IMG/VR virus record: IMGVR_UViG_3300010158_000105
Coordinates: 1 to 47,856 of that record
DNA: 47,856 nucleotides
Source of the DNA: a virus
Strand: one strand, 5' to 3'
The position numbers and the translations under genes were made by a program. Positions within the stretch are counted from its first letter, which is position 1, and each line of letters begins with the position of its first letter. Of the stretch, positions 16,301 through 47,600 are shown in pieces. The notes under the pieces were generated by a model, which was given only the letters and a program-made list of their open reading frames with translations, ran no database searches and was not told the origin of the DNA.

Positions 16301-16704
16301 GTGTTGTCTTCTGGCTCACCTAGCGGAGCATCAGCTAATGCATCTAGTTGATTCAAGTCAATATTAGCACGTACCACATACGCACGATTGCTTACACCTA
16401 GGTAACTGTATGCCGCTTGTAAACCATATTCGTTCTGTTCGCCAGCATGAATAGGGTTGTTGTTAGCATCAGTTTTAAACACAGGTGTACCAAATGTGTC
16501 TGCTAAATCTTTCTGACTTGTTAGTAGATAAACTTGGCCAGCGTTAGCGGCAAGTGTACCTCCAGCGATTCCGGTTGCTGATCCGTTTTGCTTGCTTTCA
16601 GCAGAGGCAACGATAATTAAAGGTGTTGTACCTGGTGCGGCAGGTGTATAGAAGCTTTCGTCTATTACGGTAACTGCTACGCCTGGTGAACTTAGTTGAG
16701 CCAT
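13360..16704 (-). CDS. 18: Tail sheath protein gp18 (enlarged)
   Basis: A 1114-aa contractile sheath protein. The N-terminus MAQLSSPGVAVTVIDESFY and the C-terminal domain (VFNLIACPGYSELVGEMVSL, then PWFAPAGTRRGGI, and NVARLVIYLRRQF near the end) are characteristic of the phage sheath family. T4 gp18 is 659 aa, so this protein carries roughly 450 extra residues, mostly in the middle (~130-700), with repeated short domains such as GSIWIKTTEPNNGARW and GDLWVDTSDLENFPK. These inserts probably form outward-facing decoration. A GGAGATC ribosome site precedes the ATG, with CTAAATAC about 33 bases upstream. Confidence 0.93.
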   Translation of the reverse strand: MAQLSSPGVAVTVIDESFYTPAAPGTTPLIIVASAESKQNGSATGIAGGTLAANAGQVYLLTSQKDLADTFGTPVFKTDANNNPIHAGEQNEYGLQAAYSYLGVSNRAYVVRANIDLNQLDALADAPLGEPEDNTYWFDTASTQYGIFEWNSASARTTGGQTFTIKYPTVITSVSKLSDGAGSAPRASIGYVGDYAIDATTTVNTVYFKNSFGLWVEVGSSDWVASWPAVTGTQALPTLGVGKSIKINTNVFDDPVNLAGLITAINASAPLGVLGISAENVNGKLALYSDSTTIHIEAQGGTAGLSALGLTAGYYAPPKLTIAPHTSVPQYKTFDSTPRPTGSIWIKTTEPNNGARWRVKNYNSASGAWIEKAAPLYANNHAALASLDSAGGGINLPLKTIYVQYNTDEGGMNHTGPQLANFKLFYRAGVGATTIQSVNMSTSPFTAGRDVSFVISESLTGSATLSSPATIYFVALGPTAGSADAEELVAQIGSSGLININAEYDAVTGKVTISHKQGGDFRIVDSSETGAELSHIFTAYHSSPDNAGLATRNLWRDPSDPTDDTKYLASLWSSTVIGGAGSRIGFANASATAPSTIPADGKLWYNSMIDEVDMMVHNGTHWVGYLNYNQTAPGGDATDPAGPIVSATRPTVQSDGTALSNGDLWVDTSDLENFPKIYKFNYVTKKWVLVDNSDQSSESGILFHDARWSGAGDDVEPDSIAKLLTYDFLDPDAPDPALYPKGMLLWNLRRSGFNVKRFVRDYINVEADNHRQIGDPSMSEYYPHRWVSEAGNQEDGSGTFGRKAQRKVVIQALQALVNANQQIRDEESRVFNLIACPGYSELVGEMVSLNYDRGLTAFVVADTPARLHPDATTLSNWGNNVNGALEDNEKGLVSSDEYLGFFYPWGYTSDNIGNNVVVPPSHMMLRTIALSDNVSYPWFAPAGTRRGGITNATAVGYITGEGEFQSVALNNGQRDTLASIKVNPLTFITGTGLVNYGQYTRAKNASSLDRINVARLVIYLRRQFAQLAKPYVFEPNDTITRNEIKGAAESLLLELVGQRALYDYLVVCDTSNNTPARIDRSELYLDVAIEPVKAVEFIYIPLRLKNTGEIKGLG

Positions 16705-30035: not shown

Positions 30036-30611
30036 CTATTCTCTGTAGGCAAGACCTTGAATATTGCCCGCTACTACCACTCTAGTACCAGTCGATTCCT
30101 GGGTAGGCACCATATGATTCAACCACGCAGGGAATATAATACCGTATCCAGTGCGTGGTTGGTAACAGTAATACGGCGGGTCCGGAAATACTAGCGGAGC
30201 AGATGATTCGTTGGCTGCTACATAATAGACAAAACTGAATAGATCTGGATGGTGTGAGTGGGTTATTGAATGTTGCCCTTTAGAGTACGATACTGCCCAA
30301 CACGCAGTTATTTTAGTGTTTAATGTCATACGAGCATTGTCTAAATACCATTGTTGTACAATAGATTCTGCTCTACTAGCAATTGTGCGGAAAGATGTGT
30401 AATCTCGATGCATACACCAATCAGTCATTTGTGCCTGTACTCGTAAAGTGCTGCCTTGTTTATCACCTTGATATTGAGCAATATTTAAAACATCTTGGTG
30501 AATAATTTTACGTTGATGAACTGGCAGATTATCTAAGGAAAATTCCCATAGTTTTATTGGCACTGTTAAATCTACTAAAATTTCGTTTACAATAGGAGTA
30601 GTCATAATCAT
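30036..30611 (-). CDS. 2OG-Fe(II) oxygenase-like protein A (tandem copy)
   Basis: A 191-aa protein paralogous to the upstream gene. The core has the 2OG-FeII_Oxy_5-like pattern: HSHHPDLFSFVYYV (metal-binding His region and strand), YGIIFPAWLNHMV (distal His), and TRVVVAGNI (2OG-binding Arg). The fold hydroxylates a protein or small molecule using iron and 2-oxoglutarate; substrate unknown. Its start overlaps the upstream gene's TGA, so the pair is translationally coupled. An ATG two codons in is an alternative start. Confidence 0.78.
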   Translation of the reverse strand: MIMTTPIVNEILVDLTVPIKLWEFSLDNLPVHQRKIIHQDVLNIAQYQGDKQGSTLRVQAQMTDWCMHRDYTSFRTIASRAESIVQQWYLDNARMTLNTKITACWAVSYSKGQHSITHSHHPDLFSFVYYVAANESSAPLVFPDPPYYCYQPRTGYGIIFPAWLNHMVPTQESTGTRVVVAGNIQGLAYRE

Positions 30612-31183
30612 TCTTGTAAGGCAGTGCCTTCTATGTTACCAGCAACAACTATTCTTGGTGCTATAGAGTTATGAGGTAATACTTGATGAGTTAACCAACC
30701 AGGAAAAATAACCCCATATCCCTGTCTTGGTTGGTAGGAGTATCCAGGGTATCCTGGAAACAATAATGGTGTAGTGTTTTCATCAACTTGAACATAGTAC
30801 GAAAACGCAAACAAGTCTGGACTGTGTTCATGCGGAATAGTTTGTTGTCCTATCTCGTAACTAGCATACCAACATGCTGTGAGGTTAGTAAGTAAGGTCA
30901 TTCGGGCATTCATCATGAACCATTCTTGTATTACTGCTTCAGCTCGATCTGATATTTTTCGAAAGATTGGATATTCTCTGTGCATACACCATTGACTCAT
31001 AGTAGTAGTTCGATCAGCTCGAGTTTTTTCAGGATCTCTATGACAATGCCCTTGTTTAACAATATCTAGGATTGAACTATGAATATCATTTTGAACATCT
31101 TTGCCGAGATGCTCAAGAGAAAACTCCCATATTCGAATTGGAACTTTTAGTTCAATGTTAATCTCAGTTACTATTGGTTGCAT
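30608..31183 (-). CDS. 2OG-Fe(II) oxygenase-like protein B (tandem copy)
   Basis: A 191-aa protein that aligns end to end with protein A: N-terminal VPIRIWEFSLEHL (A has VPIKLWEFSLDNL), metal region HEHSPDLFAFSYYV, distal YGVIFPGWLTHQV and Arg-strand PRIVVAGNIEG. The pair is a clear tandem duplication that has diverged at many positions. It is first in its unit and divergent from the plus-strand tailoring cluster across 92 bases. The ATG follows GCATAAGTAG closely. Confidence 0.78.
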   Translation of the reverse strand: MQPIVTEINIELKVPIRIWEFSLEHLGKDVQNDIHSSILDIVKQGHCHRDPEKTRADRTTTMSQWCMHREYPIFRKISDRAEAVIQEWFMMNARMTLLTNLTACWYASYEIGQQTIPHEHSPDLFAFSYYVQVDENTTPLLFPGYPGYSYQPRQGYGVIFPGWLTHQVLPHNSIAPRIVVAGNIEGTALQE

Positions 31184-31275: not shown

Positions 31276-31884
31276 ATGAAAAATCACACAACTAGTGAAT
31301 GGTCTACACATTTTTATGTTGGGCAAGTAACTGCGCATGAACAAATAGTAACTAGTTTGACCCCATTTTTAAACGACGCTACTAATTTTGGAAACCCTTG
31401 GATATACTCAAATTGTAAGTCTACATGCCAGCAACACTCTAATTCATTAATCCCGTGGAACGTGTTTTATCAAGCAATACAACCAAACATTCAAGAGTAT
31501 CTTAAAAGTCTAGAACCGTTATGTGAATATAAAATCCATAGTAACGAAGTTTGGATGAATCTATACGACCAAGGTGAGTACCAAGAAATACATGATCATG
31601 CTTTTCCTAACAGATCGTTTTCGTGTGCGTATATGTTAGAGCTACCTCAAGAGGAAAATTGTGGAGGTCAGTTAATTTTTGAAAATCCAAATTTTTCAAT
31701 AGTACAAGCTACAGGTATAAACAGAATTTTTAATGCGTTCAGTCAAGGAAAGTTTATACCAAACATACAAGAAGGCACATTGGTAATTTTTCCAAGTTGG
31801 GCCTCGCATTATGTTTTACCCAACAAAAGCACGTCGCGCAGGATTACAATTAGTGCCAACTTTAGTATTGAAGGTGCGTACTAA
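31276..31884 (+). CDS. 2OG-Fe(II) oxygenase-like protein C
   Basis: A 202-aa protein with the same fold signature as A and B but a different sequence: YQEIHDHAFPNRSFSCAYML (HxH region), GTLVIFPSWASHYVLPN (distal His) and SRRITISANFS (2OG Arg). It belongs to the phage '2OG-FeII_Oxy_5'-like group. It lies on the plus strand at the head of the glycosyltransferase-to-halogenase run, with a 70-base gap before the next gene, so it may be part of the same pathway. Substrate unknown. Confidence 0.75.
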   Translation: MKNHTTSEWSTHFYVGQVTAHEQIVTSLTPFLNDATNFGNPWIYSNCKSTCQQHSNSLIPWNVFYQAIQPNIQEYLKSLEPLCEYKIHSNEVWMNLYDQGEYQEIHDHAFPNRSFSCAYMLELPQEENCGGQLIFENPNFSIVQATGINRIFNAFSQGKFIPNIQEGTLVIFPSWASHYVLPNKSTSRRITISANFSIEGAY

Positions 31885-31935
31885 AGGCTCAAAACTCTTG
31901 CTTCCTTATATAAAATATGCTAAATTATAGTGTAT

Positions 31936-31941
31936 TATAAT
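31936..31941 (+). promoter_or_regulatory. Possible -10 box upstream of the glycosyltransferase gene
   Basis: TATAAT, 14 bases before the ATG at 31955, in an A/T-rich gap. No convincing -35 is visible at 17 bases. A ribosome site (ATAGGAC) follows. A late-like GCTAAATTATAG also lies at about 31919-31930. Confidence 0.3.
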
Positions 31942-31954
31942 TATAGGACAACTT

Positions 31955-32962
31955 ATGACTCAAAGACATAAAGCATTTTTTATCAACGGTGGCGCCGGCA
32001 GAGTAGTCTGTTCAATCCCTGCATTGGAAAAATACGCTGAAGAAAATGGCAATGATTTTATCATTGTATGTGAGGGCGGGACTGATTTTTATAAAGGTCA
32101 TCCACTATTACATGCCAGAGCATACGACCACTGGCATAAAAACTTATTTGAAGACAAACTAATTAACATGGATTTAGTAACTCCTGAGCCATATCGTGTT
32201 TGGGAATACTTTAATCAAAAGTGCTCATTAGCACAGGCATTTGATATTCTTATTAACGATAAAGGTATTAGAGATTTACCTAAACCTACTATTCGGTTGT
32301 CAAACGAAGAGCTGTTTGGCGGGTTCAATGTTATCAAAGAAGTTAAAGAAAAAACTAAAAAAGATAAGATTATTGTGGTACAACCGTTTGGTCGAGGTGT
32401 TCGAGCTGAAAATAACTCAATCTTTGATCCGTCTGGCCGTAGCTTTGAGGGTGTTCATACTATCAATATTATTAGAAAACTTCAAAAGAACTTTGGCGTT
32501 ATTTTAATGAGTGAAGTTGGCATTGATTTCCAACAACACGGTTGTAAAGATCTCGTAGCTCATCCACAAAATGTTAGTTTACGTCAATGGGCTGGCATTA
32601 TTGCTGGCGCAGATTATTTCTTAGGGTGTGATTCTGTGGGGCAACATATGGCATATTCCTTGGATATACCTGCTACAGTAGTTGTAGGTTCAACATTTAG
32701 TATTAATGTGTCGTATCCAACTGCTGAAAAGTTTGATGTATTAGATATGGGCGGTACTGTTCGTAAATATAGTCCTATTAGAATTACTATGGACGAAGTG
32801 GCAGATCGCGGTAATGACGGGATTATGGCAATGAATGATAAGATTGAAGATGCTATTATTGCGTCAGTAAACAAGGGTGTTGCTAAATTCAAAAGACCTA
32901 GCCAGACCACTGAGCCCTTGATGATCACCGCTACTGCTCCAATATCTTGCTCGGCAACATAA
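31955..32962 (+). CDS. GT9-like (heptosyltransferase-type) glycosyltransferase
   Basis: A 335-aa protein with a GT-B feel. The N-terminal block FFINGGAGRVVCSIPALEKY corresponds to the start of ADP-heptose:LPS heptosyltransferases, which bind the acceptor. A middle strand IIVVQPFGRGVR opens the donor domain. A C-terminal ADYFLGCDSVGQHMAYSLDI followed by IPATVVVGST matches the nucleotide-sugar binding end of GT9. It would transfer a sugar to a glycan or other acceptor in the host cytoplasm. The 3' neighbour starts after three bases. Sugar and acceptor are unknown. Confidence 0.78.
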   Translation: MTQRHKAFFINGGAGRVVCSIPALEKYAEENGNDFIIVCEGGTDFYKGHPLLHARAYDHWHKNLFEDKLINMDLVTPEPYRVWEYFNQKCSLAQAFDILINDKGIRDLPKPTIRLSNEELFGGFNVIKEVKEKTKKDKIIVVQPFGRGVRAENNSIFDPSGRSFEGVHTINIIRKLQKNFGVILMSEVGIDFQQHGCKDLVAHPQNVSLRQWAGIIAGADYFLGCDSVGQHMAYSLDIPATVVVGSTFSINVSYPTAEKFDVLDMGGTVRKYSPIRITMDEVADRGNDGIMAMNDKIEDAIIASVNKGVAKFKRPSQTTEPLMITATAPISCSAT

Positions 32963-32965
32963 TTT

Positions 32966-33886
32966 ATGAAAAGACTTTTTACCTTTGGATGTAGTTATAC
33001 TAGTTACTCATGGCCTACTTGGGCTGATTTAATTAGTATAAATTTTGACTCTAGCAAAAACTGGGGGTTATCGGGCATTGGAAATCGAGCAATCGCAGAG
33101 CGAGTTGCCGAAGCAAATATTCGATACGGGTTTACTGAAGAAGATACTGTTATAGTACAATGGAGCAGTCACTTACGTCATGACTTTTTCCATATGCATA
33201 GTTTACCAGAACGAATTAGTCACTGGAAAACTAGCGGTAGTGTGTTTAATTACATTAACGAAAAGCTATACGGTAAAAAATGGATTGAAACATTTTTCTT
33301 TGAGCCAGCATATTTTATGCATACCTTAAATCACATAACACTTACACAAGGATTATTAAAATCCACAGGTTGTAAGTGGTATATGACCAGTATTGGCGAC
33401 ATTAGAAATATGGGCACTGACTTGCGGACTAATTCTGGTATTGGAGAGCATACTGATTTAGTAAGACCGTATGAATTAGGCATTGATAAAGTAGCCTGGA
33501 CTAAAATTCCAGAACTTGCGGTATACGATAAACCAATTTGGCAAGATCATGCCGAGCACTGGTTAGCACCTATGGAACTAGTGGCTAAACAAACTCCAGA
33601 GTTAACTTACGATTTTGTCGATACTGTACTTAAAAATAAAAGATTTTTAGATACGCATCCAAGTGTGGCTCAACATCTAATATGGGTTAAGCAAGAGCTG
33701 ACTGATAAGTTACAGCTATCAGATGAAACTATCGCAATTTGTGATGAACTAGCAGAGGCAATAAAGCACGTTCACGCTAAGTTTAATTTTAATAAACAAT
33801 CGTTTGAACTTATGTTAGCAAAACGCACTAATTTTCCAGTATCAGCAAAAAAATTAAATTGGCCGTTTCCAATGGAAGGCTTTTAA
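32966..33886 (+). CDS. SGNH-hydrolase-like protein
   Basis: A 306-aa protein. FTFGCSYTSY near residue 5 has the nucleophile Ser of SGNH block I, GLSGIGNRAIAERV fits block II, and VIVQWSSHLR sits where block III would be (usual Asn not obvious). Near the end DTHPSVAQHLIW matches block V (DxxH-type, Asp and His of the triad). SGNH enzymes are esterases or acyl transferases on glycans and lipids. It has no signal peptide, so it acts in the cytoplasm. Start spacing implies co-translation with the glycosyltransferase. Confidence 0.65.
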   Translation: MKRLFTFGCSYTSYSWPTWADLISINFDSSKNWGLSGIGNRAIAERVAEANIRYGFTEEDTVIVQWSSHLRHDFFHMHSLPERISHWKTSGSVFNYINEKLYGKKWIETFFFEPAYFMHTLNHITLTQGLLKSTGCKWYMTSIGDIRNMGTDLRTNSGIGEHTDLVRPYELGIDKVAWTKIPELAVYDKPIWQDHAEHWLAPMELVAKQTPELTYDFVDTVLKNKRFLDTHPSVAQHLIWVKQELTDKLQLSDETIAICDELAEAIKHVHAKFNFNKQSFELMLAKRTNFPVSAKKLNWPFPMEGF

Positions 33887-33894
33887 GGATATAT

Positions 33895-35700
33895 ATGGAT
33901 GAAATTAAAAAAGATGTATGGATTGCTGCACTAGCACGTGGCCATAATAGCAGTGTGTGTTTACTAAAGAATGGCGAAATAGTATTCAGCATTGAAGAAG
34001 AAAGATTAAGTCGTCACAAATACGACGGCGGCCCATTTGCCGCTATGCTAAAAATATTAGACTATACAGATCGTTTAGATTATTTGGTTATTGCGCATAC
34101 TCAAAATTTACGCGAAACTGCTGGTAGGATTGACTTTTCTGGAGATGACGTATACACTGGACTAGCAAGGAAACTCGGGCTAATCCGTCGAAATGAAAAT
34201 CCAACCGATCATCCCCAAGTGGTTGACTTTAGTCATATTCACCATAAGTTACATGCCGCCTGTGCATTTTATCGATCTGGATTTGAGGAAGCTGTGGCTC
34301 TAATTGTTGACGGTGCTGGTACATTTATCCCCTTGTCCATTAACAATGAGACTGTAACTGGTTGGGAAACTGAAAGCATCTATAATTGTTCATATCCTGC
34401 TACATTTAAAACAATGTACAAACATATTGGCGTTAGGGGCCCAAATGCCGGAGCACTGATTAAAGAGTTTGACAGTAGTATGTACGATGAACCATTTTGT
34501 AGTCATGAGGCACTAATTACTGATCGTGCCGGCATTACTAAAGTGTACGAAGCAGTTACCCAATACTGCGGTTGGAGTGGCATTGAAGCCGGAAAAACTA
34601 TGGGGTTATTCCCATACGGAAAAGCCAATGATGCTATTCCTCCATTATTTGACACATCCACTGTGGCGCCATTAGCTAACAGAAATATTGTTATTCCTAC
34701 ATACCCAAATGGTGCTGTTATTAACGGAATGTTATTTGAATATCTTAATAATAGCGATATATACCAAAAGGATATGACCTATTTAGACAATCGAAGAGAT
34801 CTTGCGTATGCGTGTCAAATACAAACCCAAGAACAAGTACTACGTTTGATTCGCAAATCGGTAGCAATGACTGGTCAGAAAAAGGTAGTAATTAGCGGCG
34901 GATATGGATTAAACTGCGTAGCAAATTATTATTACTTAGATCAATTACGTAATGAAGGTATTGAACTGTATATTGAACCTATTAGCAACGACGCCGGAAC
35001 TGCTATCGGTGCCGCTCTAATGTTTTATAAAGGCATGGAAGATCATGTTAATGTTGATTATTCTAAAGACGGACTGTATCTTGGATTTAAATATGATTAT
35101 TCTGTAGATGACGTTACTCGTATTGCAGCAAAATATGATGTTGAGGTAACAGATGCGTCAAACGATGATGTTGTTGAGCTATTATTGAACAAGAATATCG
35201 TTACATTATATCAAGGCCGTAGTGAAAATGGCCCACGTGCGCTAGGAAATAGATCAATATTGTTTAACCCAACATACGAAGACGGTAAAGACTTTGTTAA
35301 TGAAGTTAAGCACCGTGAATACTTCCGACCGTTTGCTGGAACAATTCTCCAAGAGCATGTACATGATTGGTTTGATCTACGAGGCATGGATGATAGTCCG
35401 CATATGATGTATGCTGTAAACTGCCAGCCCGGTGTAGAAGAAAAAATTCCAGCAATTATTCATATTGACGGAACATGTCGTATACAAACTGTTACAGAAG
35501 AACAGAATAAACATTACTATGATTTGATTAAAGCATTCCATAGCAAGACAGGTGTGCCAATTTTGTTTAATACTAGTTTTAATCTAGGTGGTGATCCGTT
35601 AGTTGAAACCCTTGATGATGCTATTCACACATTACAACAAAGTAGAATTGAATACTTGTATTTGCCAGAGTTAGGCAAACTATTAAAAGTAGCTAACTAA
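33895..35700 (+). CDS. Carbamoyltransferase (NodU/CmcH family)
   Basis: About 601 aa from the ATG at 33895, which has an AAGGATAT ribosome site and gives the family N-terminus (WIAALARGHNSSVCLLKNGE, then IEEERLSRHKYDGG). An upstream ATG at 33859 lies inside the previous gene and is rejected. The ASKHA-type kinase-like domain (HIHHKLHAACAFYRSGFEEA, LIVDGAGT) is followed by VISGGYGLNCVANYYY and GRSENGPRALGNRSI, then PFAGTILQEH and FNTSFNLGGDPLVET, all hallmarks of this O-carbamoyltransferase group, which uses carbamoyl phosphate and ATP. It is likely to carbamoylate a sugar or other hydroxyl. Its TAA overlaps the halogenase ATG. Confidence 0.9.
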   Translation: MDEIKKDVWIAALARGHNSSVCLLKNGEIVFSIEEERLSRHKYDGGPFAAMLKILDYTDRLDYLVIAHTQNLRETAGRIDFSGDDVYTGLARKLGLIRRNENPTDHPQVVDFSHIHHKLHAACAFYRSGFEEAVALIVDGAGTFIPLSINNETVTGWETESIYNCSYPATFKTMYKHIGVRGPNAGALIKEFDSSMYDEPFCSHEALITDRAGITKVYEAVTQYCGWSGIEAGKTMGLFPYGKANDAIPPLFDTSTVAPLANRNIVIPTYPNGAVINGMLFEYLNNSDIYQKDMTYLDNRRDLAYACQIQTQEQVLRLIRKSVAMTGQKKVVISGGYGLNCVANYYYLDQLRNEGIELYIEPISNDAGTAIGAALMFYKGMEDHVNVDYSKDGLYLGFKYDYSVDDVTRIAAKYDVEVTDASNDDVVELLLNKNIVTLYQGRSENGPRALGNRSILFNPTYEDGKDFVNEVKHREYFRPFAGTILQEHVHDWFDLRGMDDSPHMMYAVNCQPGVEEKIPAIIHIDGTCRIQTVTEEQNKHYYDLIKAFHSKTGVPILFNTSFNLGGDPLVETLDDAIHTLQQSRIEYLYLPELGKLLKVAN

Positions 35701-37199
35701 TGCGTATAGTTATAGTTGGTGGCGGTACTGCTGGATGGCTTACTGCCATTATAGGGTTAGCTATTGCGCCAGAACATACTTACACAGTTTTAGAAAGTAC
35801 TAAACTTGGTATTATTGGTGTGGGAGAATCTACTACAGGATTCTTTACAGATTTGTTTCAAGACGATCTGTGTAGTATGGGTGTAGATCATGATGATTTT
35901 ATGATTAAAACTGGTGCTACCTGTAAGCTAGGCATACATCATCGAGGGTGGGGGAAAGATCCTAAACAAAGTTATCTCGCTCCACTAGACGGGTCGTCTA
36001 CTCAATTTGATTCTCATGATAGTGCTTTTGAATTTGCGTTAAAGCAGTTGCCCGTTGAAGATCTAATTACCATAAGTCACACCGGGTTTCTTATGAAACA
36101 CGGGCTTAGTAATATGGATCGCACTGGTAAATTTACTCGTCACGGTCACGCACTTCATGTTGATGGTACATTAACCGGGCAATACTTTAAAAAGCATTGT
36201 TTACAAAAAGAAAATTGCCATTATGTAGATAATGAACTAGTCTCAATTAATATAGGCGAGGACTCTTTAATCTCAAGTATACAACTAGCCGACGGTAGTC
36301 AGTTAGAAGGTGATTTGTTTATTGATTGTACAGGATTTTCAAGACTATTAATCAAAGCTATGGGCGCAAAATGGCTTAGTTATAAGCCGTGGTTACCGAC
36401 AGATCGGGGTATGCCGTTTTTAGAGAAGTATACCGAAGATGAATTACCAGAAGCATGGACTACTGCTCGTGCTCAGAACAATGGGTGGATGTGGACCACT
36501 CCGTTACTAGATAGAAAGGGTAACGGATATGTCTATAGCAGTGATCATGTAACTGACGAACAAGCGCAAGATGATATAGAGATAGCATTAGGTCGCAAAA
36601 TAAATCCTGTCAAAATAGTTAAATTTGATGCCGGTCGACAAGATCAAGCCTGGATTGGCAATTGTATCAGTATTGGACTTAGTAGTAGTTTTTTAGAACC
36701 TCTAGAAGCAACTAGTATACATACATCTATTGTTCAAATTAAAATGCTATTTAAAGAATACATTTGTGCTACTAAGGAGCAAACTCTAAATCCTGGTATT
36801 ATTAAAACTTATAATCAGCGATGGGGTAAACAAATCGACGATCTCAAAGACTTCTTGGTAATGCACTATCAAGGCGGTAGAACTGACACTGAGTTTTGGA
36901 GATATATCACTAGTGGGGCAACTCAAACTGAATTAGTTAAAACGCTGATGGATATGGCCCGTGTTAGAACACCATCGTATAATGATTTCCCAAGATATTG
37001 GGGAGTAGCTGGTTGGAGTTTATATTCGTGGGTTATGTCAGGACTAGGATTGTTTGATAATGTACCTACTTGTAATGATCCCGAATGGTTGTTTGATCAA
37101 GAAATTTCATATTTAGAACTTCAACAACACATGACCCGATTGTATGGAAATAATTTAACACATGCTGAGTATATAAATTTTATACGATCTAAACGTTAA
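35700..37199 (+). CDS. Flavin-dependent halogenase (tryptophan halogenase family)
   Basis: A 499-aa protein. FAD-binding GGGTAGW is at residues 7-13 (GxGxxG-like) and GVGESTTG at about 40-47. ATCKLGIHHRGW holds a Lys (K76) at the place of the catalytic Lys79 of PrnA/RebH. GWMWTTPL at about 262-269 matches the family WxWxIP box except that Thr replaces Ile. The fold oxidises halide through hypohalous acid and a Lys-haloamine. Cyanophages carry relatives, one shown in the literature to iodinate (VirX1). It overlaps the carbamoyltransferase by one base. No flavin reductase is seen in the window. Confidence 0.9.
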   Translation: MRIVIVGGGTAGWLTAIIGLAIAPEHTYTVLESTKLGIIGVGESTTGFFTDLFQDDLCSMGVDHDDFMIKTGATCKLGIHHRGWGKDPKQSYLAPLDGSSTQFDSHDSAFEFALKQLPVEDLITISHTGFLMKHGLSNMDRTGKFTRHGHALHVDGTLTGQYFKKHCLQKENCHYVDNELVSINIGEDSLISSIQLADGSQLEGDLFIDCTGFSRLLIKAMGAKWLSYKPWLPTDRGMPFLEKYTEDELPEAWTTARAQNNGWMWTTPLLDRKGNGYVYSSDHVTDEQAQDDIEIALGRKINPVKIVKFDAGRQDQAWIGNCISIGLSSSFLEPLEATSIHTSIVQIKMLFKEYICATKEQTLNPGIIKTYNQRWGKQIDDLKDFLVMHYQGGRTDTEFWRYITSGATQTELVKTLMDMARVRTPSYNDFPRYWGVAGWSLYSWVMSGLGLFDNVPTCNDPEWLFDQEISYLELQQHMTRLYGNNLTHAEYINFIRSKR

Positions 37200-37212: not shown

Positions 37213-37240
37213 AAAAAAGCCCCTTAACTGGGGCTTTTTT
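37213..37240. terminator. Bidirectional terminator between convergent operons
   Basis: AAAAAAGCCCC pairs perfectly with GGGGCTTTTTT around TTAACT. T-runs on both strands serve the plus-strand halogenase operon and the converging minus-strand chaperone gene, whose stop begins in the stem's last base. Confidence 0.93.
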
Positions 37241-37896
37241 TATTGAGTACCGTCTGGTTTTGGATATGGCTGTAGTTTCCAAGGATCAGTTGTCGGAGTT
37301 TCTCCGCTATGTGCGGCGCCGTGAACTTGTGGAATATCTCTTAATTTCTGTCGAAATTCTTCCCAGGCAGTTCTTAATGATTCTGGTATATCCGAAACTA
37401 CTCTATCATCACTCATTGCTAGTTCAGCGTTACGACCTTTTCGAAATAGTTCCCAAGTAATATGAGGTTTTTTCCAAGGATACGGTTTTACTAGTTGTTC
37501 AGTTGTTGGATTGTATTGTATTTCCGTTGCTTCGTATGTATGATCCGGGACTGGATTCAATGGTCGGCGGTATACTGTTCCGTCTGGAAGCTCTTCTTCA
37601 TATTGCGGAAGTGCTTGATGATCAGTAGGATCATCTGCCCCGACTAAACAACACAATAATGGATCGGTTTCACAATCAATCATCAGCTTGTATTGATCTA
37701 ATGGTGTTGGATATATGTCGCCGTCTTCTTCTTTAGTCTTGAAGTGACAATTTATTAAGTTGGTTTCTTTATCAATAAAAATCCAAATTTTATCAGGTCC
37801 ACTATATGTCCATTCTGCTGTTTTACCTAGATCATTTGTTTCATACAAATAATCATCGGCTATATCGTATGTAAAAGTTTTTGTTATTTTTGCCAT
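37240..37896 (-). CDS. Tail-fibre assembly chaperone-like protein (APC-like), copy 1
   Basis: A 218-aa protein. The N-terminus KITKTFTYDIADDYLYETND and TYSGPDKIWIFID are shared with the copy at 39439. The C-terminal block WELFRKGRNAELAMSDDRVV followed by WEEFRQKLRDIPQ matches the pattern of phage tail assembly chaperones (PF16778-like 'W..lR..R...L..sD' then 'W..YRq.LRdiP'). It likely folds or trims an adjacent fibre protein. It lies directly downstream (5 bases) of the Cys-rich protein at 37901. Confidence 0.72.
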   Translation of the reverse strand: MAKITKTFTYDIADDYLYETNDLGKTAEWTYSGPDKIWIFIDKETNLINCHFKTKEEDGDIYPTPLDQYKLMIDCETDPLLCCLVGADDPTDHQALPQYEEELPDGTVYRRPLNPVPDHTYEATEIQYNPTTEQLVKPYPWKKPHITWELFRKGRNAELAMSDDRVVSDIPESLRTAWEEFRQKLRDIPQVHGAAHSGETPTTDPWKLQPYPKPDGTQ

Positions 37897-37900
37897 AATT

Positions 37901-38656
37901 TTAACCGTATGTAATCGAAACTAAACCGTTGCCGCCGTGCATTCCTGGCCAGCAACTTCCATCATATGCTTGGGCACTTGTACCGCCACCGCCTGGGAAT
38001 ACTGAGCAAGGAAACCAAGCAGTACAGCCGCCGGTGTTGCCAAGATTCATACAACCACCAGGACCGTATTGTGGGCCTGACACTGTTCCCGCTGCCGTTG
38101 GGGCATGTTGTTGTCCATATTGTTGACACCATGTACTTGATGTATATGTTGATTGTCCGCCATGAATACAAATATCACCACCGTATGCGCAACAGCAATA
38201 AGGGTTTGCTGTTGAACAAGTATAGCAACTTAAATATAACCAGCATGTTGTATTACCATAATGTCCGCCACTGGCACATAAATTACTTGTACCATAACCG
38301 TTTACATAGCTAGTACATCCAGCACAACCAATACAACTACATGCTGCCGTAGTAGTACTGCCAGCACAGATAGTATATTGACAACCCGCCAATGTTGTGC
38401 TACATACTGTTTTATTAACGTATGCTCCGCTTCCGCCTGGCCATCCTTGCATACAACAACAAGCGCCAGCACCTCCGCCACCACCACCCCATATTTCAAA
38501 TAATACCCATGTTGAGCCAGCAGGCACAGACCATAAACAACATTGTCCGCCATTTGCCGGAGTGTTTACGTTAGTGTTATATATTAACAGTTCTCTTGGA
38601 TAGTTAGTTGACGCTTGTACCGGAATTGAATATAATAAAGTTCTTAAATCTGACAT
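37901..38656 (-). CDS. Cys/Gly-rich adhesin-like protein 1
   Basis: A 251-aa protein with 25 Cys, about 10%, and very high Gly. It opens MSDLRTLLYSIPVQAS, then CCLWSVPAGSTWVLFEIWGG leading into a GGGGGGAGACCCMQ tract. The end GGNGLVSITYG is the usual finish of glycine-rich phage adhesin domains. Cys are spread along the chain, often in pairs or triples. No catalytic residues are seen. It is likely a fibre tip or surface protein; metal binding or disulphide-locking are possibilities. Cassette neighbours are a paralogue and chaperone-like genes. Confidence 0.72.
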   Translation of the reverse strand: MSDLRTLLYSIPVQASTNYPRELLIYNTNVNTPANGGQCCLWSVPAGSTWVLFEIWGGGGGGAGACCCMQGWPGGSGAYVNKTVCSTTLAGCQYTICAGSTTTAACSCIGCAGCTSYVNGYGTSNLCASGGHYGNTTCWLYLSCYTCSTANPYCCCAYGGDICIHGGQSTYTSSTWCQQYGQQHAPTAAGTVSGPQYGPGGCMNLGNTGGCTAWFPCSVFPGGGGTSAQAYDGSCWPGMHGGNGLVSITYG

Positions 38657-38669
38657 GAATGTTCCTGTT

Positions 38670-39434
38670 TTATTTGTATGTTACAACAACCATACCGCCG
38701 GAACCCCAACCACCCCAACAGCAAGGACCATTGTACGACATGGCGCCGCCGCCGCCGCCACCCGGAAATTGGTTTGCGTTACCTTCAGATGCCGCACAGC
38801 CCATCCAATATTCACCGCAATGAGTTCTTGAAATTCTAGCGCCTGCGCCAATTACTGGACCGCCTGGAACCATATGCCAAGCATCAAATCCGCACCATGA
38901 TGCGTGAGCTGATCCCATAAGTCCGCAAATGGCAAAATCAGCGTTGCAGGTTGATCCGCAAATATGTGAAGGACAATGGAAACAACTAGCAATAGCCCAC
39001 CAACATGATGAATCGCCACCTGCACCACCGCTAGCACATAAACATAATGCGTCTGGTGTTGCGCTGGCATTACATGCATACGACGGGAATCCGTTAGTAC
39101 CTCTACATGGCTGAGTACAGCAACCTGAGCCGCCTGCGCAAATAGTAAAAGTTTGGCCAGGAGTTACGCGAATAGTTCTGCGGGCGTATGATCCTGACCC
39201 GCCGCCACGACTTGGTTGCATACAGCAACATGCTCCGGGGCCGTCACCACCTCCGCCCCATACTTCAAACTTGGCCCAGACAGAGCCAGTTGGTACGGTC
39301 CACAAGCAACAACGTCCACCATCGCTAACGGCGTTACCTTGGTTACCGTTATAGACTGATAGTACACCAAACGCATTTGTTGGATATGTTAAGTTAAATC
39401 TAGTGTCTGGAAAAAGGGTTCTTAAATCTGACAT
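38670..39434 (-). CDS. Cys/Gly-rich adhesin-like protein 2
   Basis: A 254-aa paralogue of the 37901 protein. MSDLRTLFPDTRF start, CCLWTVPTGSVWAKFEVWGG and GPGACCCMQ repeat the same design, and it has 23 Cys. The middle differs widely (FTICAGGSGCCTQPC, LCASGGAGGDSSCWW), so the N-terminal and last-strand frame is conserved while the interior varies, as expected for a receptor-binding surface under selection. It ends GGMVVVTYK. It lies 13 bases upstream of the other copy, in the same strand and unit. Confidence 0.72.
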   Translation of the reverse strand: MSDLRTLFPDTRFNLTYPTNAFGVLSVYNGNQGNAVSDGGRCCLWTVPTGSVWAKFEVWGGGGDGPGACCCMQPSRGGGSGSYARRTIRVTPGQTFTICAGGSGCCTQPCRGTNGFPSYACNASATPDALCLCASGGAGGDSSCWWAIASCFHCPSHICGSTCNADFAICGLMGSAHASWCGFDAWHMVPGGPVIGAGARISRTHCGEYWMGCAASEGNANQFPGGGGGGAMSYNGPCCWGGWGSGGMVVVTYK

Positions 39435-39438
39435 AGGA

Positions 39439-40128
39439 TTATTCCGGAGTACGTGTACGTGGTATTAAATCTGCTCTAACAACGAACGGCTCGTCTGGAA
39501 AAATTACCTTCCATGGATCAACTCCAGCAAATGTTGTCGGAAGGTCTCTTAATTTTTGTCTATATTCTTCCCACGCAGGTTGTTGTTCTGGACTTGCAAG
39601 ACGTAATTGTCGATCACTTGCCATTAAACCAGCTGTCCTTGCTTTCCTTAACGTTTCCCAATCCATGTGTGGTTTTTTCCACGGGTAAGGTTTTACAAAT
39701 TGACCAGTTGTTGGATTGTATTCTATTTCAGTTAATTCGTAAGTATGATCAGGTGGAACATTTACAGGATGTCCGTATGTTGTGCCTTCTGGCAACTGTT
39801 CAACTGTCTGCGGCAAACTTCCGTAGTCTACTTCATTATGTACTATACTGATTAGCTCTGGATTAACATTTGCGTCAACTAACACTTTAGTCATGCCATT
39901 AGGCGTTGGAACGTCATGCCCGTTATCTTTCTCAGTATAGTGAAATCTACTAGATATTTTATTAGAATGATTATCAATAAAAATCCAAATTTTATCAGGA
40001 CCAGTATAAGTCCACTCGCATGTTTTCTTAAGTGCGTCAGTTTGATACAAGTACGTATCCGGTACTGGATATGTAAATGTTTTTGTAATTACAGTATTTG
40101 TTGGTAATTCAGGTGTATTATCAGACAT
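39439..40128 (-). CDS. Tail-fibre assembly chaperone-like protein (APC-like), copy 2
   Basis: A 229-aa paralogue of the 37240 protein: TKTFTYPVPDTYLYQTDAL, WTYTGPDKIWIFID, then EIEYNPTTGQFVKPYPWKKP (very close to copy 1), WETLRKARTAGLMASDRQL and WEEYRQKLRDLPTT. The two copies each follow a Cys-rich gene, which suggests they serve them. The C-terminal tail differs. No other domain is seen. Confidence 0.72.
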   Translation of the reverse strand: MSDNTPELPTNTVITKTFTYPVPDTYLYQTDALKKTCEWTYTGPDKIWIFIDNHSNKISSRFHYTEKDNGHDVPTPNGMTKVLVDANVNPELISIVHNEVDYGSLPQTVEQLPEGTTYGHPVNVPPDHTYELTEIEYNPTTGQFVKPYPWKKPHMDWETLRKARTAGLMASDRQLRLASPEQQPAWEEYRQKLRDLPTTFAGVDPWKVIFPDEPFVVRADLIPRTRTPE

Positions 40129-40147: not shown

Positions 40148-40927
40148 TTAACCGTATGTTATTAGTACTAGGCCGCCGGCACCCCAGCTGCCCCAACAGC
40201 ATCCACCGCCGCAAGCTGATGATGGAGTTCCCATACCTGCTGGCCATTTAGAGCCGTTCATTGCGTCACAACCCTGACGGGTGTTATTATTTGTACAGCG
40301 TTCTAATCCAGTTCTAGTTGACATTCCGTATTTAGGAGCGCCAGTTGCAGCAAACCATTGACTACTAAAGCAATAGTTTGAATCTTTTGCAGTGCCGCCG
40401 ATTGATGCGATACCAACATCAGGCAGTCTGCCGGACGCAGGAGCACATAAGTTACAACCAAAGTTTTGAGCACCGTTACAAATTCCAGTACACCCCCAGT
40501 AACCGTGCCAACAACCAACGCATCCAGTGTAGCCACCGCCTGCGCAAATTACCTGTTGACCGTTTGATCCACAATTGACCCAACTAGGAAACCCGCAAGT
40601 ACCGCAATGGCTTTGAGCACAACAGCCTGATCCAGCTGCACATGTACAGAAATAACATCCAGCTGTAACTGTAAGTGAAATCTTTGCGTAGTGGCCTGTC
40701 CCTGGTCCACAGCAACCTAGGCCTGAACAACAGCAAGCGCCACCACCATCACCACCGGCGCCCCATAATTCAAAACTTGCCCATGTGGTTCCAATAGGAA
40801 CAACCCAGCAACAGCAACAGCCGCCGTTTTGAACGCTACTGATGCTATTATGGTATATTGCTAGCTGTATTTGCTTATAGTTAGCCGACGGAATAACAAT
40901 TGGTAATAAGTCGCGTAATGATGACAT
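40148..40927 (-). CDS. Cys/Gly-rich adhesin-like protein 3
   Basis: A 259-aa paralogue with 30 Cys, the highest of the three. It begins MSSLRDLLPIVIPSANYKQI, with CCCCWVVPIGTTWASFELWG and GGGACCCSG near residue 60, and ends GAGGLVLITYG. Cys-Cys pairs and the ACCC triplet are shared with copies 1 and 2. The central region is different, again consistent with tip diversification. It is the first of the five-gene cassette in transcription order. Confidence 0.72.
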   Translation of the reverse strand: MSSLRDLLPIVIPSANYKQIQLAIYHNSISSVQNGGCCCCWVVPIGTTWASFELWGAGGDGGGACCCSGLGCCGPGTGHYAKISLTVTAGCYFCTCAAGSGCCAQSHCGTCGFPSWVNCGSNGQQVICAGGGYTGCVGCWHGYWGCTGICNGAQNFGCNLCAPASGRLPDVGIASIGGTAKDSNYCFSSQWFAATGAPKYGMSTRTGLERCTNNNTRQGCDAMNGSKWPAGMGTPSSACGGGCCWGSWGAGGLVLITYG

Positions 40928-41631: not shown

Positions 41632-44600
41632 TTATCCTAGTAGTAAGAAATCCATTGCTAACGGTAAACCATTAATACCGCCAGTAAAATTCATTGTTGC
41701 TGTTACGTTAATCTGTACCCCAGTAGTAGTACTAATACTATTACCAGCAATATAGATAACACCTGCCGTTAGTGTATTTACATTCAATGCGCTTGAACCG
41801 CCGCCAATTTGGCTACTAATGTATGATTTAATAGCTTTTTGGGTAGGTACAATATTATCGCTGTTTGCGCTAAAATACTGATCTGTTGAGAAACTAGTAA
41901 TAGTTGCTCCAGTTCCGCCTAATGCTACTGAACCTAATGTTAGTGAGTTCAAACCAGCTAAGTTAAACGCATCAGCGTTAATACTTGCAACACCCGTTGC
42001 TTGTTGTACAGAGAACAATGTTCCTACTGTAAAGTTACCGTCTTGGTCAGTACTTGTGTAGAATACACGACCACCACCGTTGCCCACAGTCTGTTTAGTA
42101 GCATCTGCCGGTTGTGTTGGGATTCCTGGATAGTTAGTGGTAGTTACACCTCCAGTTCCGATGCTTAAGAAGTCATGTCCTGTTAAACGAACCTGACTAT
42201 ACTTAATACGCATAGTTGTTACAGTAGTATGCGCAGGAGCAGTAATTGCCGTAAATTGAGGACTTATTTGGAATCTTGCGGTATACGGGCTTTGACCACC
42301 GCCTGTGCCTACATAATTGCTCACAGCAACTAACTTATAGAATGTACTGTCGCCAGTGAATACAACATTTGATCCAGGAGTTGGACTACTTGTTAAGCCT
42401 GCTACGTTAACATAGTATCCTGTTTGGAACATGTCTGCGTATCCGTTACCAGTAATTGTTGAAAGAGCAGTTGCGTATTGTAATCCTCTATTAGTAAATG
42501 TTGGATTTGCTATTGCTCCTATGCCAACTCGAGTTGACCAAGTTGCTGTGCTAGTTTGGTTAGGGTCAGTAATTGTTATTGACGGAGTTGTACTGTATCC
42601 GCTTCCAGGCTCTATTAATCGAATTTCACTAATTGAATTTGCTGATACTTTTACTCTTGCTTGCGTTGTACATCCAGCAATAACACTGTTTGCTGCAGTT
42701 GTTGATGTTGTTAACGCAACCCATAAAGGTACACCACTTGGATTTCCAAACGCAACGGCTGGCCATGCTGCCGCAACTGTTAGAGTTCTTGAAGTCCAGT
42801 TTGCTCCATTTTCTGATGTTGCAGCAATTGTAGTTGATCCAGTAGCTGTGGCAAAGAATAATCCTTGACCGTAACGTACCTTAGTCCACGCTTGACTTGT
42901 TGGAGTACCGGCACTTGATTGTACCCATGTAATTCCGTCTTTTGAATATGCAGCAATTCTGCTTCCACTTGCGACCGCAACAAACACACCTTTACCAAAT
43001 GTAACACTTGACCATGTGGCTGTTGTCGGTAGTGCTCGTGTAGTCCAAGTTAATCCGTCTGCGCTACTTGCGGCTTGAGTACCACCACTAGCAACTGCGA
43101 CATATACGCCATTGCCATATGCAACTCCGGTCCACGTTGTGCTTGCTGGTAATGCTCCTGTAGCAGTCCAACTTACTCCAGTAGTTGAATACGCGGCAGC
43201 AGTACTTCCACTAGCCACTGCCATAAACACACCGTTTCCGTACGTGATTGCCGACCATGTAAAGTTGCCTAGTGCTGTACCTGTTCCGCCTGCGGTCCAC
43301 GCACTTGTTGGATCCGTAGTAAACGCATTTATATTATTACCTTGTGCTATTGCTACCCAACGACCTGCTCCTGAAGCTACCGCCGCCCATGTTGCGCTAG
43401 CACTTAACGCACCGCCGGCAGTCCATGTTGTACCATTAGTACTATATTGAGTAGTAGTGCCAGTATTGGCAATTGCTACGTAATATCCACCTGAACCAAT
43501 ACCAGTGTATGTAAAGTTTAAGATTGCTCCAACTGCCACTGCGCCAACTCCCACAGTAGCTACTAGTGTTACTGTAATTGTAATATCGTTAGTAGTGCTA
43601 GCGCCGCCGGCACTTGTTCCAGGAATTGTAAGAACATCACCAATTTTATAATTTGCGCCGCCACAGCCTGTCACTGCAGTATTAGTGGTTACAACATACG
43701 CAGTGCCGGTTCTAGCAATTGTAAATGTTGCAGCAGTTCCGCTACCACCAGTTGCTGCAACACCAGCATTTGATACACCGTTATAAGTTACTACAGTATC
43801 ACCATATACACAATCTGTCCAAGTTGCACTTGTAGATGTGCGAGACGATGCTGTATATGTTGGGCTTGTAAATAGTATTCTTGGTTCAATAATATATGAA
43901 GATGTTAAATCTAATGAACTAGATATCGCAGTTCCGGTAATTACATGATCCCATCCAACAGCATTTAAAATTAAACCGCTACTGCTAGAAGATGTTCCTA
44001 CTGCTACTGGAGTTGTTCCACCTGAGCCTGACGCTACACTAAATTGTGTTGAAGTTATTGTTGAACCAATTACATAATAAATGGTGTTTAGCGCAATTGT
44101 CGACATGCCGGTTAATAATGCGCCGGTTAATATCACTGGCATGTTAGCGTATAAAGATGATGTATCAGCTACTGTTAATAAACCTGAACCTGCCGCGGAT
44201 ATTGATAGTGGTGTAAAGCTTTCTTTAGCAACAATACCGGCTTTAGTACCGTTGTTATATGTAGTAAAATAACCTACTTGCCCAACACCAGATCCACCAG
44301 TAACTATAACACGCATGCCAACATACGCACCGGTAATACCCGAATCAGTTGCAGCAATAACAATACTAGTAGCAGTACCGCCCTGAGCAACGTTAGTTTG
44401 ACTTACATAGTTTGCTCCGTTAGATAACATTCTAGATTCAAATACCGCGTTATCTCTAAATTCATTTGCTATTGTAGTTACGCCATACCCAGTTCCACTG
44501 GTGCTGAATGTAGCAGAATTATACATTGATCCAGCATTGGTAAACTCCATACGATAAATTTGATTAGTGCTGTCTGTTAAAACTGTGCCTACTAATGCTT

Positions 44601-47600
44601 GATAGTATCTGTTATTCACTGTTGCTGTAATAGGCACTTCATATGTATCAACACCTTCAGCTAACGAACCATACGTACCGTATGAGTTATTACCATTAGT
44701 TGCTCGCATTTTACCGCCAAGCTCAGCTAGGTATCCAGCATATGAATAGTACGCAAACACAGATACTAACTCAGTTAATGATTGTGATCCGGTACACCAA
44801 ACACCAATACCATCACTTAAAATAGTGGTATAGTCGTTAGCAACAATAGATCTATTACCAGCACTGTGTAACGCACCGTCAATCTTCATACCAATACATC
44901 CAGTACCAAACATTGTTACGTTTTGAGTGTAAGGACTCTTTGGGGTAATCCATACGTTTTTATCGTTAGGACCGTAGCCTGGATCTAACGAACTGTATGC
45001 TCCGGCTGTTACTCGCTTAGTTCCGTAACTATTTGCTGCAGTTAGAGTTCCAGTTAATCCAGTTAATGTCATGTTACGTAGACCAGTACCGTTACGTAGA
45101 TAGAACATGTCTGATAATAAAGACCCAGTTACGGCATTTTTATATAAAGTAGTAGCACGTATTGACTTGTAGTTACCTAATAAGGCTATATCGTATACTA
45201 ACGCATCAACATAGTTTGCCATATCTCTCTTACATAACGTACTATTAAAACTATAAGTTACTGTAAATGATGTGCCAGATGTAGCTAACGCAAATACTGT
45301 TGCTGACCCTTGAACAGCAGTTAGTGTAAATGTGTTTGAAGCAGGTACTGCTAAAATATAGTAGACTGTTCCTGCTACAATATTTCCATAAGTTGCTGAG
45401 AATACTACAGGGTCACCTACAACAAAATTATGAGTGCTGCCAGTAGTTGCTCTGCTAGTTCCGGCATCAGTACTCACTACTGTGTTACTGTAAGTATAGC
45501 TTACCCAAGCAGTAGCTTCATTTGATAAAAATGTTGTGTTAGCACGTAAAACTTCGGCGCCTTTTATTGAAGTTACTACGTTATTATATGTTCCTGAGCC
45601 TGTAGTTTCAACAACATCGCCGATAGTAAATGATGTATTTCCGGTGTCGGCCGTTAGCGTTTTAAGAACACCACTACCGTATGTTTCTGTAATTGTAAAT
45701 GTTGTAGAGTTTGTGACTGTTACGATCCAATATTTTCGACCAGTAGCAAGTGTTCCAACTCCAGCAGTGGCAAAGGTGATTGGCATTCCGGACATCATTC
45801 CAGCAGTGCTAGGAACAGTAATATTGCCGCCTACAAATGTTTGAGTAGATACAGAAGTAAATGTTGTTGTGCCAGTAATTGATAAAATCATGTCATCAAT
45901 TGATGCGATCAATTGCGCAGAAGTATCGTATGCTGCAATTTTCTTAGCTTTATGGGCTATAAAATTTATTGCGCCACGTTCAGCAGTTGCTTGATTCGCA
46001 AGTACGTATTGAGCACTTGTTGTTGCTCTGTAATATGCCATTGCCGCTTTAACTGAATTGAAATTAGTACCAAACAATAGGTCGTAGCTAAACGCATCTA
46101 CAATATAGCCAGCATCTCTGTAACAAGTTGCTGTGGTAAAATTCAATGCTTGATAATATTTGCTAACCCAACTTACTGCGTCAGATTGAATTTCAGTTTT
46201 TGCTGTTTGTAATGCGTTGTAGGCATTTTGTAAAGGTGTACTAGCCAACGCAATTGCAGCAGTTGGTGTCAGCGTAGCCGGAGCGGCGCCGTTGGTAATC
46301 CAATCAATAACATCTTGAATACGTGCTTGAGCAAATGTTGCAGCTCCTGCTGAACCAGCCGTGCCTGAGGTAACTTGTGTTGGGTTTGCTCCAGTGACTG
46401 CTACAGGAGTTCCACTTGACGCAACAACCTGACTTAGGTTAACGGTCCATACTGAGCCAGAGCCTGATCCGCTTACATATCCAGTAATGTAAGTAACACC
46501 AGTCAACCCCGCCATTGTTAGAACATGTCCAACCATGATAGTTCCAGTAACTGCCGAACTGATAGTTAATGTAGTCCCACTGATGTAACCTGTTGTACTA
46601 AATGTAGTATTTGGAGAGTTAACTGTGGGCGTAGTCTTTAAAACAATATTTGATATCAGTGTTTTCAACGTTGTGTATGCAGAAAGTGTTGCTGTTTTTT
46701 CTGTAGAGGCAACAGTCAACGCACCGTTTGAATAGTACGCACTACCGGCAATTAATGTTTGAGTATTCCCGCCGTAGGTCATATCATACTGTATCGCATC
46801 TAACAAGTAACCAATATCACGCTGACATGATGCTACTGTAATTGCGTTATATACTGACAGATAGTTGTTAAACAAATACTGACTAATGTATGCTTTAATG
46901 TAGTAATAGTTTTGTACAATTTGTGCTTTGCCGTCGCCATATCCTGTTAAGAAGCTAGTATTGTAACCAGTTGGGTTTGTAAATGTAAACGCCGGCACCA
47001 CTGACAATGTGTTCTGAACAATAATATAGTTCATTAGCGATGCACTGGTTAAGATTGACGATACTGCTGCACTACTTCCAATTCCACTACTTTCAATGCC
47101 AGTAGTTATGTTTGTAATAATAGTTGATAGGTATGCTAACATTCCTAACTGAGCGGCTTTTTGTGCGCCAACTACTAGAGCAGCCTGCGCGGTATAATAA
47201 CTCATTGCAGCTTTAACTGAGCGGAAATTAGATCCAAACATTAAATCGTATGTTAGCGCATCTACAATATAACCAACGTCTCTAGAACAAGTCACTGTGT
47301 TGAATACTAATACCGGATAGTTTGATTGTACCCATGCTACTGCGCTCGCCTGTATTGAAGCTTTTCTTGCTTGAACATCTGCAGCGGCTGCTTGTAATCC
47401 TGAACTTACCCAAGAAGTGCTTGGCGCAAGGGTAGCAGGGGGTTCACCGGTATTAATTGTAGTGTATATATCTTGGATACGTGCTTGAGCAAATGCGGCG
47501 GCGCCTGCTGACCCTGGAGTGCCGCTTACATCTTGTGTTAACCCGGTAGTTTTAGTCCAACCGGCAGTATTACCTGTAGCAATATTATCAATAATATCTT

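Follow-up and report, generated by a model that had tools for sequence, protein, structure and literature searches.

The virus record IMGVR_UViG_3300010158_000105, whose entire 47,856 nt form the window (47.9 kb) analysed here, encodes a contractile tail (sheath and tube) and a tail-fibre operon. Near this operon lie five plus-strand open reading frames (ORFs) for a 2-oxoglutarate (2OG)-Fe(II) oxygenase, a GT9-type glycosyltransferase (GT), an SGNH-fold enzyme, an O-carbamoyltransferase (CT) and a flavin-dependent halogenase (table 1). The GT, SGNH and CT genes, and the cysteine-rich tail proteins encoded close to them, are the subject of this analysis. An original prediction, made from the sequence alone, had read all five genes as one tailoring pathway. 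Its gene coordinates and the spacing of the last four genes (3, 8 and −1 bases) agree with ours, and Pfam, PHROG and predicted structures agree with its enzyme identities. The first ORF ends 70 bases before the GT gene, and the ATG start of the CT ORF is nested in a longer TTG ORF. The strong bidirectional terminator placed at the end of the cluster is also present: the letters AAAAAAGCCCC-TTAACT-GGGGCTTTTTTT, read directly, give a stable fold on either strand, and a consensus-based terminator scan did not pick up this stem-loop. Fibre genes were said to flank the cluster on the opposite strand; the immediate left neighbours (30036–31183), however, are two minus-strand 2OG oxygenases.

The conserved part of the cluster is smaller than five genes. 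In what follows, relatives are IMG/VR loci unless a phage is named. A GT scan of IMG/VR gave 80 loci, and genes were counted in the 66 that extend 4.5 kb or more downstream. Tail genes homologous to the flanks of the window's cassette adjoin the GT in all 80. The CT is present in 66/66 loci with room and the SGNH gene in 55 (two copies in 16). In 46 of the 66 the module and the tail genes share a strand; in the other 20, the group to which the window belongs, they are on opposite strands. In some relatives the GT–SGNH–CT block (31955–35700 in the window) is thus flipped in place between the same neighbours; an invertible DNA switch was rejected, as no long inverted repeats flank the block in the window. 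Matches in genome collections are marine metagenome-assembled contigs, most with these same phage tail genes, and were not accepted as cellular relatives. The conserved unit is GT–(SGNH)–CT, with changing additions.

The partner of this unit, overlooked in the original prediction, is the adjacent tail locus. Three small tail proteins to the right of the cassette are glycine-rich and contain 9–12% cysteine. A reciprocal search that started from these adhesins alone yielded 78 IMG/VR loci, many of them on contigs also present in the GT scan. The GT occurs in 71, and the remaining seven end at most 1.4 kb past the last adhesin (71/71 with room). The CT occurs in 66; the five loci with a GT and no CT end early, and a CT is present wherever the sequence continues past the adhesins for more than 4.1 kb. 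The linkage is strict in both directions. Among 50,697 annotated phage records, the three adhesin queries matched only phages with GT–CT (S-CAM1, S-SSM7, S-SSM6a, Sf-FS3, P-SSM2 and P-SSM5), bar one contig of the single-cell virus AG-345-E02, whose sister contig has GT–CT. In S-CAM3, GT–CT also lies beside Cys-rich proteins.

The same association recurs with other proteins. A second, more distant GT clade comprises 80 loci, 48 of them with at least 6 kb upstream. Proteins of 150 aa or more were counted as Cys-rich above 4% Cys; within 8 kb of the GT, 44/48 loci encode such a protein upstream and 1/48 downstream, and of 37 loci with an adjacent CT, 36 encode one on one side or the other. These neighbours are unrelated proteins: the 318 that were collected form 40 BLAST clusters. 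Single-cell phages with GTs 39–40% identical to the window GT have different Cys-rich neighbours again. Still further away, in Aeromonas phage HJ05 and Vibrio phage D505 (GTs 25–26% identical), the GT neighbours are tail proteins with stretches dense in Cys; an IMG/VR scan with these Vibrio and Aeromonas GTs found no relatives. In a whole-genome count of ORFs of at least 150 aa and at least 8% Cys, S-CAM1, P-SSM2, IMG/VR record G001 and the window have only two or three, beside the GT, and there are none in P-RSM4, Syn1, HTVC008M and S-CAM8, genomes that lack the GT. A control query with a Cys-poor Gly-rich protein gave too few records to use. The feature common to the GT neighbours is Cys richness, not fold. 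From this genomic pattern, the GT, SGNH and CT genes probably form a cassette with which the phage modifies its tail adhesins.

Table 1. Features of the cassette and the neighbouring tail locus in the window.
Feature	Position	Strand	Basis and remarks
2OG-Fe(II) oxygenase, accessory	30036..30611	−	PF13759 5.5e-12
2OG-Fe(II) oxygenase, accessory	30608..31183	−	PF13759 5.2e-9
2OG-Fe(II) oxygenase, lineage-specific accessory	31276..31884	+	PF13759 1.2e-16, phrog_81
GT9-type glycosyltransferase (GT), core	31955..32962	+	phrog_8954 3.3e-152; PF01075 via relatives; AlphaFold model
SGNH-fold hydrolase or acyltransferase	32966..33886	+	predicted structure, conservation
NodU/TobZ-type O-carbamoyltransferase (CT), core	33895..35700	+	PF16861 3.6e-58, PF02543 5e-26
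flavin-dependent (Trp-type) halogenase, lineage-specific accessory	35700..37199	+	PF04820 7.7e-89
bidirectional intrinsic terminator	37218..37240 (approx.)	both	sequence and fold
tail (fibre) assembly chaperone-like protein	37240..37896	−	PF16778, phrog_4912; adjoins GT or CT in relatives
Cys/Gly-rich tail adhesin 1, proposed substrate	37901..38656	−	10% Cys, 18% Gly; phrog_4205, PF21722
Cys/Gly-rich tail adhesin 2, proposed substrate	38670..39434	−	9.1% Cys
tail (fibre) assembly chaperone-like protein	39439..40128	−	PF16778, phrog_4912
Cys/Gly-rich tail adhesin 3, proposed substrate	40148..40927	−	11.6% Cys; phrog_4205
large tail fibre, start of adhesin operon	41632..47295	−	phrog_9851 4.1e-63

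In a family of related large beta-roll fibres (259 repeats), Cys occupies the variable positions 6, 7, 10, 11, 16 and 17, at 7–19% each. Although the search pattern admitted Cys at positions 1, 2 and 12, none occurs there; positions 13 and 14 have it at 1–3%, and the collagen-like stalks of these fibres lack it. The fibres can be giant (loci L360–L381, for example L360:8001–15131), reaching about 3,600 aa, with Cys confined to the beta-roll repeats. A supposed contrast group of beta-roll fibres without a GT was discarded when a whole-record search placed the GT 9–14 kb further downstream; three beta-roll records without a GT stop at or shortly past the fibre, and all those with room have one. 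The Gly-rich adhesins have about half of their Cys residues in conserved columns and the other half elsewhere. This pattern allows disulfides, yet is not what a design built on disulfides alone would be expected to show. An alternative is that the adhesins are stabilized by disulfides or metal and that GT–CT merely hitch-hikes in a variable host-range island. The conserved half of the cysteines and the frequent CC and CCC motifs would fit such a design, and tail islands are hot spots of gene exchange (PMC7029224). Hitch-hiking, however, would not yield near-100% reciprocal linkage across distant phages, leaves the upstream-only link with 40 clusters of Cys-rich proteins unexplained, and sits poorly with the odd Cys counts of 12/23 adhesins. 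It appears improbable.

The window GT alone matches PF01075 only weakly (E 0.26), but the family is recognized in 19 of 26 relatives, at best with 3.5e-6. PDB sequence searches with the GT and SGNH proteins gave nothing useful, and fold comparison was needed instead. The AlphaFold model of the GT (predicted local distance difference test, pLDDT, 82.5) matches the GT9 structure 3tov (5.6e-10), TibC, WaaC and WaaF, so the protein is modelled as a GT-B fold of the WaaC/WaaF type, GT9-like. It has 335 aa, with the predicted Rossmann beta1 strand starting from residue 6 and no conserved Cys4 set. Gly12-Asp13 is common to Escherichia coli WaaC, WaaF and WaaU. By motif spacing (GGAGR...P), the position of WaaC D13 and of the TibC catalytic Asp is Arg in 181/182 phage GTs; the candidate base of TibC is Asp110 (PMC4358343). 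An Arg at the catalytic-base position would be consistent with an acceptor thiol.

No Pfam family matches the SGNH protein. The model (pLDDT 87.6) resembles SGNH esterases, with Foldseek matches to 1deo (5e-5), TesA, PatB and OatA. Ser10 and His231 are invariant in 48 sequences. GCS stands in place of GDS, and where GxND is expected there are an invariant GxGN-like motif and QW. The CT carries both domains, PF02543 and PF16861, and its PDB relatives include GdmN and TobZ. The catalytic and metal residues H17, H116, H120, D139 and D366 and the motif GPRALGNR are invariant.

The sugar is likely a heptose, on the grounds of the GT9/WaaC-type fold and of nucleotide-heptose-like genes that follow GT–CT in S-SSM7, Sf-FS3, S-CAM1, S-CAM3 and P-SSM2. 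This set comprises a cytidylyltransferase-like protein, a PfkB kinase, an annotated phosphoheptose isomerase, a cupin and an epimerase. One such cupin, SSSM7_131 of S-SSM7 (L001:19015–19416), is annotated as a cysteine dioxygenase. Pfam finds only generic cupin domains in it and, as it follows GT–CT cassettes, a sugar-acting cupin is more likely.

Another possibility is that the cassette acts on the host. Late in infection the GT and CT would place a carbamoylated heptose on the host's lipopolysaccharide (LPS) or on some other glycan of its surface, against superinfection or the binding of progeny to debris. GT9 enzymes are classically LPS heptosyltransferases, 'LPS' sugar genes are reported from large cyanophages (PMC3037559), and host-surface change is the published reading of the glycosyltransferases that pelagimyophages carry in their host recognition cluster (PMC7029224). 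That reading gives no reason to expect a cassette tied to Cys-rich tail proteins from many unrelated families. In most relatives, GT and CT are close to the tail genes and on their strand, and cyanobacterial LPS is reported to lack heptose (PMC4515613). Modification of the host surface is accordingly rated unlikely, and the virion, one of three targets offered in the original prediction beside a host surface glycan and a small molecule, fits better.

A small-molecule product is not supported: the module is bound to tail-adhesin genes and not to other biosynthetic genes. A single natural-product or glycan-tailoring pathway of all five genes, giving a halogenated and carbamoylated small product, would suit the tight spacing of the last four genes and the halogenases found within the GT–CT cassettes of S-SSM7, S-SSM6a and L105. 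Against it, the check proposed with the original prediction, conserved co-occurrence of the five genes, upheld only GT–(SGNH)–CT: among GT relatives with enough sequence, the window-type halogenase and the window-type 2OG gene are each found in 0/66. The window halogenase adjoins the module elsewhere only in the near-identical contig L005. In most phages with both a halogenase and a CT, 20–65 kb lie between the two. For the halogenase and 2OG genes this is the scattered occurrence that the prediction itself had held to speak against a shared pathway, and no scaffold-making genes are nearby. The five-gene pathway is therefore highly improbable. The halogenase and 2OG genes are lineage accessories, not part of the module core, and the cassettes of S-SSM7, S-SSM6a and L105 indicate that halogenase recruitment has recurred.

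The window halogenase has GxGxxG, a catalytic Lys (ATCKLG) and the FLEPLEAT motif with the catalytic Glu when aligned to 6frl and Trp 5-halogenase; its WxWxIP motif reads WMWTTP, with Thr for Ile. VirX1, the halogenase of cyanophage Syn10 (6qgm; PMC8407142), is likewise a flavin-dependent enzyme from a T4-like phage, but the window halogenase aligns better to 6frl and Trp 5-halogenase. Other accessories at this site in relatives include a methyltransferase, a carbon-nitrogen hydrolase, a HAD phosphatase and more 2OG proteins. The carbon-nitrogen hydrolase (PF00795) stands beside the GT in ten loci (L081:13597–14454 and nine others) and is a possible further tailoring enzyme. At another tail-fibre locus (L095:5645–16549), a 41% identical halogenase is accompanied by several 2OG-like genes, with no GT, CT or Cys-rich protein, which suggests a separate halogenase–2OG link to tail genes. 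SSSM7_124 of S-SSM7 (L001:14607–15161), annotated as DNA endonuclease V, matches 2OG-FeII_Oxy_3 at 5.1e-9, and phrog_274, named DNA endonuclease V, also matches the window 2OG gene. The label on these 2OG proteins is likely a propagated misannotation.

The gene order of the window, with tail fibres and glycosyltransferase in a variable island inside the structural genes, fits the definition of the T4-like host recognition cluster (PMC7029224); its VrlC/gp14 borders were not identified. The tail sheath (13360–16704, phrog_10581) has 1,113 aa, far longer than T4-type sheaths. A cyanobacterial host was considered and set aside: psbA (PF00124) was not found in 12 large relatives, and the terminase is closest to those of PA5oct-like jumbo Pseudomonas phages.

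For the preferred reading, modification of the phage's own adhesins, the following sequence of events may be proposed. Presumably late in infection, the GT would move a sugar, probably heptose, onto the Cys/Gly-rich adhesins of the adjacent operon, using nucleotide-activated heptose from the host or, in some cyanophages, from neighbouring phage genes. The T4 late promoter TATAAATA has no match in the window, so timing is not readable from promoters. The CT and the SGNH enzyme would then adjust hydroxyls on that sugar. The likeliest attachment would be S-linked, to the dense and probably exposed cysteines, with Ser, Thr or Tyr of the same proteins as a fallback. In the window lineage the added halogenase and three 2OG oxygenases would probably act at the same locus, by halogenation of Tyr or Trp and by hydroxylation. 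S-linkage to Cys would explain the Cys density common to unrelated partners, and also how the enzyme might do without an acceptor-activating Asp. A tentative extension, possible rather than probable, is S-glycosylation throughout these phages, in which an Asp-to-Arg GT9 enzyme glycosylates the dense, exposed Cys of unrelated adhesins and O-carbamoylation follows. The target, the tail proteins, is the stronger part of this proposal, and the linkage through sulfur the weaker.

Several observations weigh against it. Overall Cys in the GT neighbours is just 4.1% in HJ05 and 2.3% in D505, and the conserved half of the adhesin cysteines would also fit disulfides or metal sites. The module is not always complete: the SGNH gene is missing from 11 of the 66 relatives with room, and the CT from some loci. 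The counts are not independent, since the IMG/VR loci are for the most part related and the two search directions share many contigs. The Asp-to-Arg match depends on motif spacing, the profile alignment having reached only the C-terminal domain, and Arg for the catalytic Asp could mean a changed or lost GT activity. The support is genomic.

The closest known parallels are the autotransporter heptosyltransferases TibC and Aah (PMC4358343), which share a GT9-like GT-B fold and a gene beside that of a surface adhesin. These act on repeat-rich adhesins; the phage counterpart shows the adjacency, and its activity is a prediction. The phage GT differs in being shorter, with no clear room for the N-terminal beta-barrel, in having neither the iron-finger Cys4 nor the catalytic Asp110, and in its Cys-rich neighbours and its CT and SGNH partners. 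WaaC and WaaF share the fold and the C-terminal nucleotide-sugar site, but the phage GT has Arg for Asp13 and is linked genetically to tail adhesins instead of LPS genes. The components are already known, and the GT–CT homologues were listed in 2010: in the 'Nol-like carbamoyltransferase' cluster T4-GC 302–308 (Sullivan et al. 2010, PMC3037559), GC 302 (GT) and GC 303 (CT) of P-SSM2 and S-SSM7 are homologous and have the same tail location. In the part of that paper covered here, GC 302 is hypothetical, GC 304, 305, 307 and 308 are read as LPS genes, possibly 'stuffer', and no link is drawn between GC 302/303 and Cys-rich adhesins. The host recognition cluster of pelagimyophages and cyanomyoviruses (PMC7029224) is likewise a variable island with tail fibres and glycosyltransferases among structural genes. 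There the glycosyltransferases were taken to alter the host surface, whereas the present module is fixed and goes with particular adhesins. Neither the Cys-rich adhesin link nor the Asp-to-Arg change was met in a limited literature search, and a limited search on S-glycosylation and phage tail proteins gave nothing relevant.

When phage glycosyltransferases and carbamoyltransferases turn up in tail islands, the usual labels are modification of host LPS or stuffer DNA. Their strict pairing with Cys-rich adhesins points instead to phages that add chemical decorations to the proteins with which they bind receptors. This would matter for adsorption and host range, and for the prediction of tail-tip structures. 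If S-glycosylation holds, these would be glycan-coated, Cys-anchored receptor-binding proteins, among them Gly-rich tips, beta-roll fibres and others. The puzzle of 2010, the co-occurring 'LPS genes' of large cyanophages, becomes a question for mass spectrometry on cultured phages.

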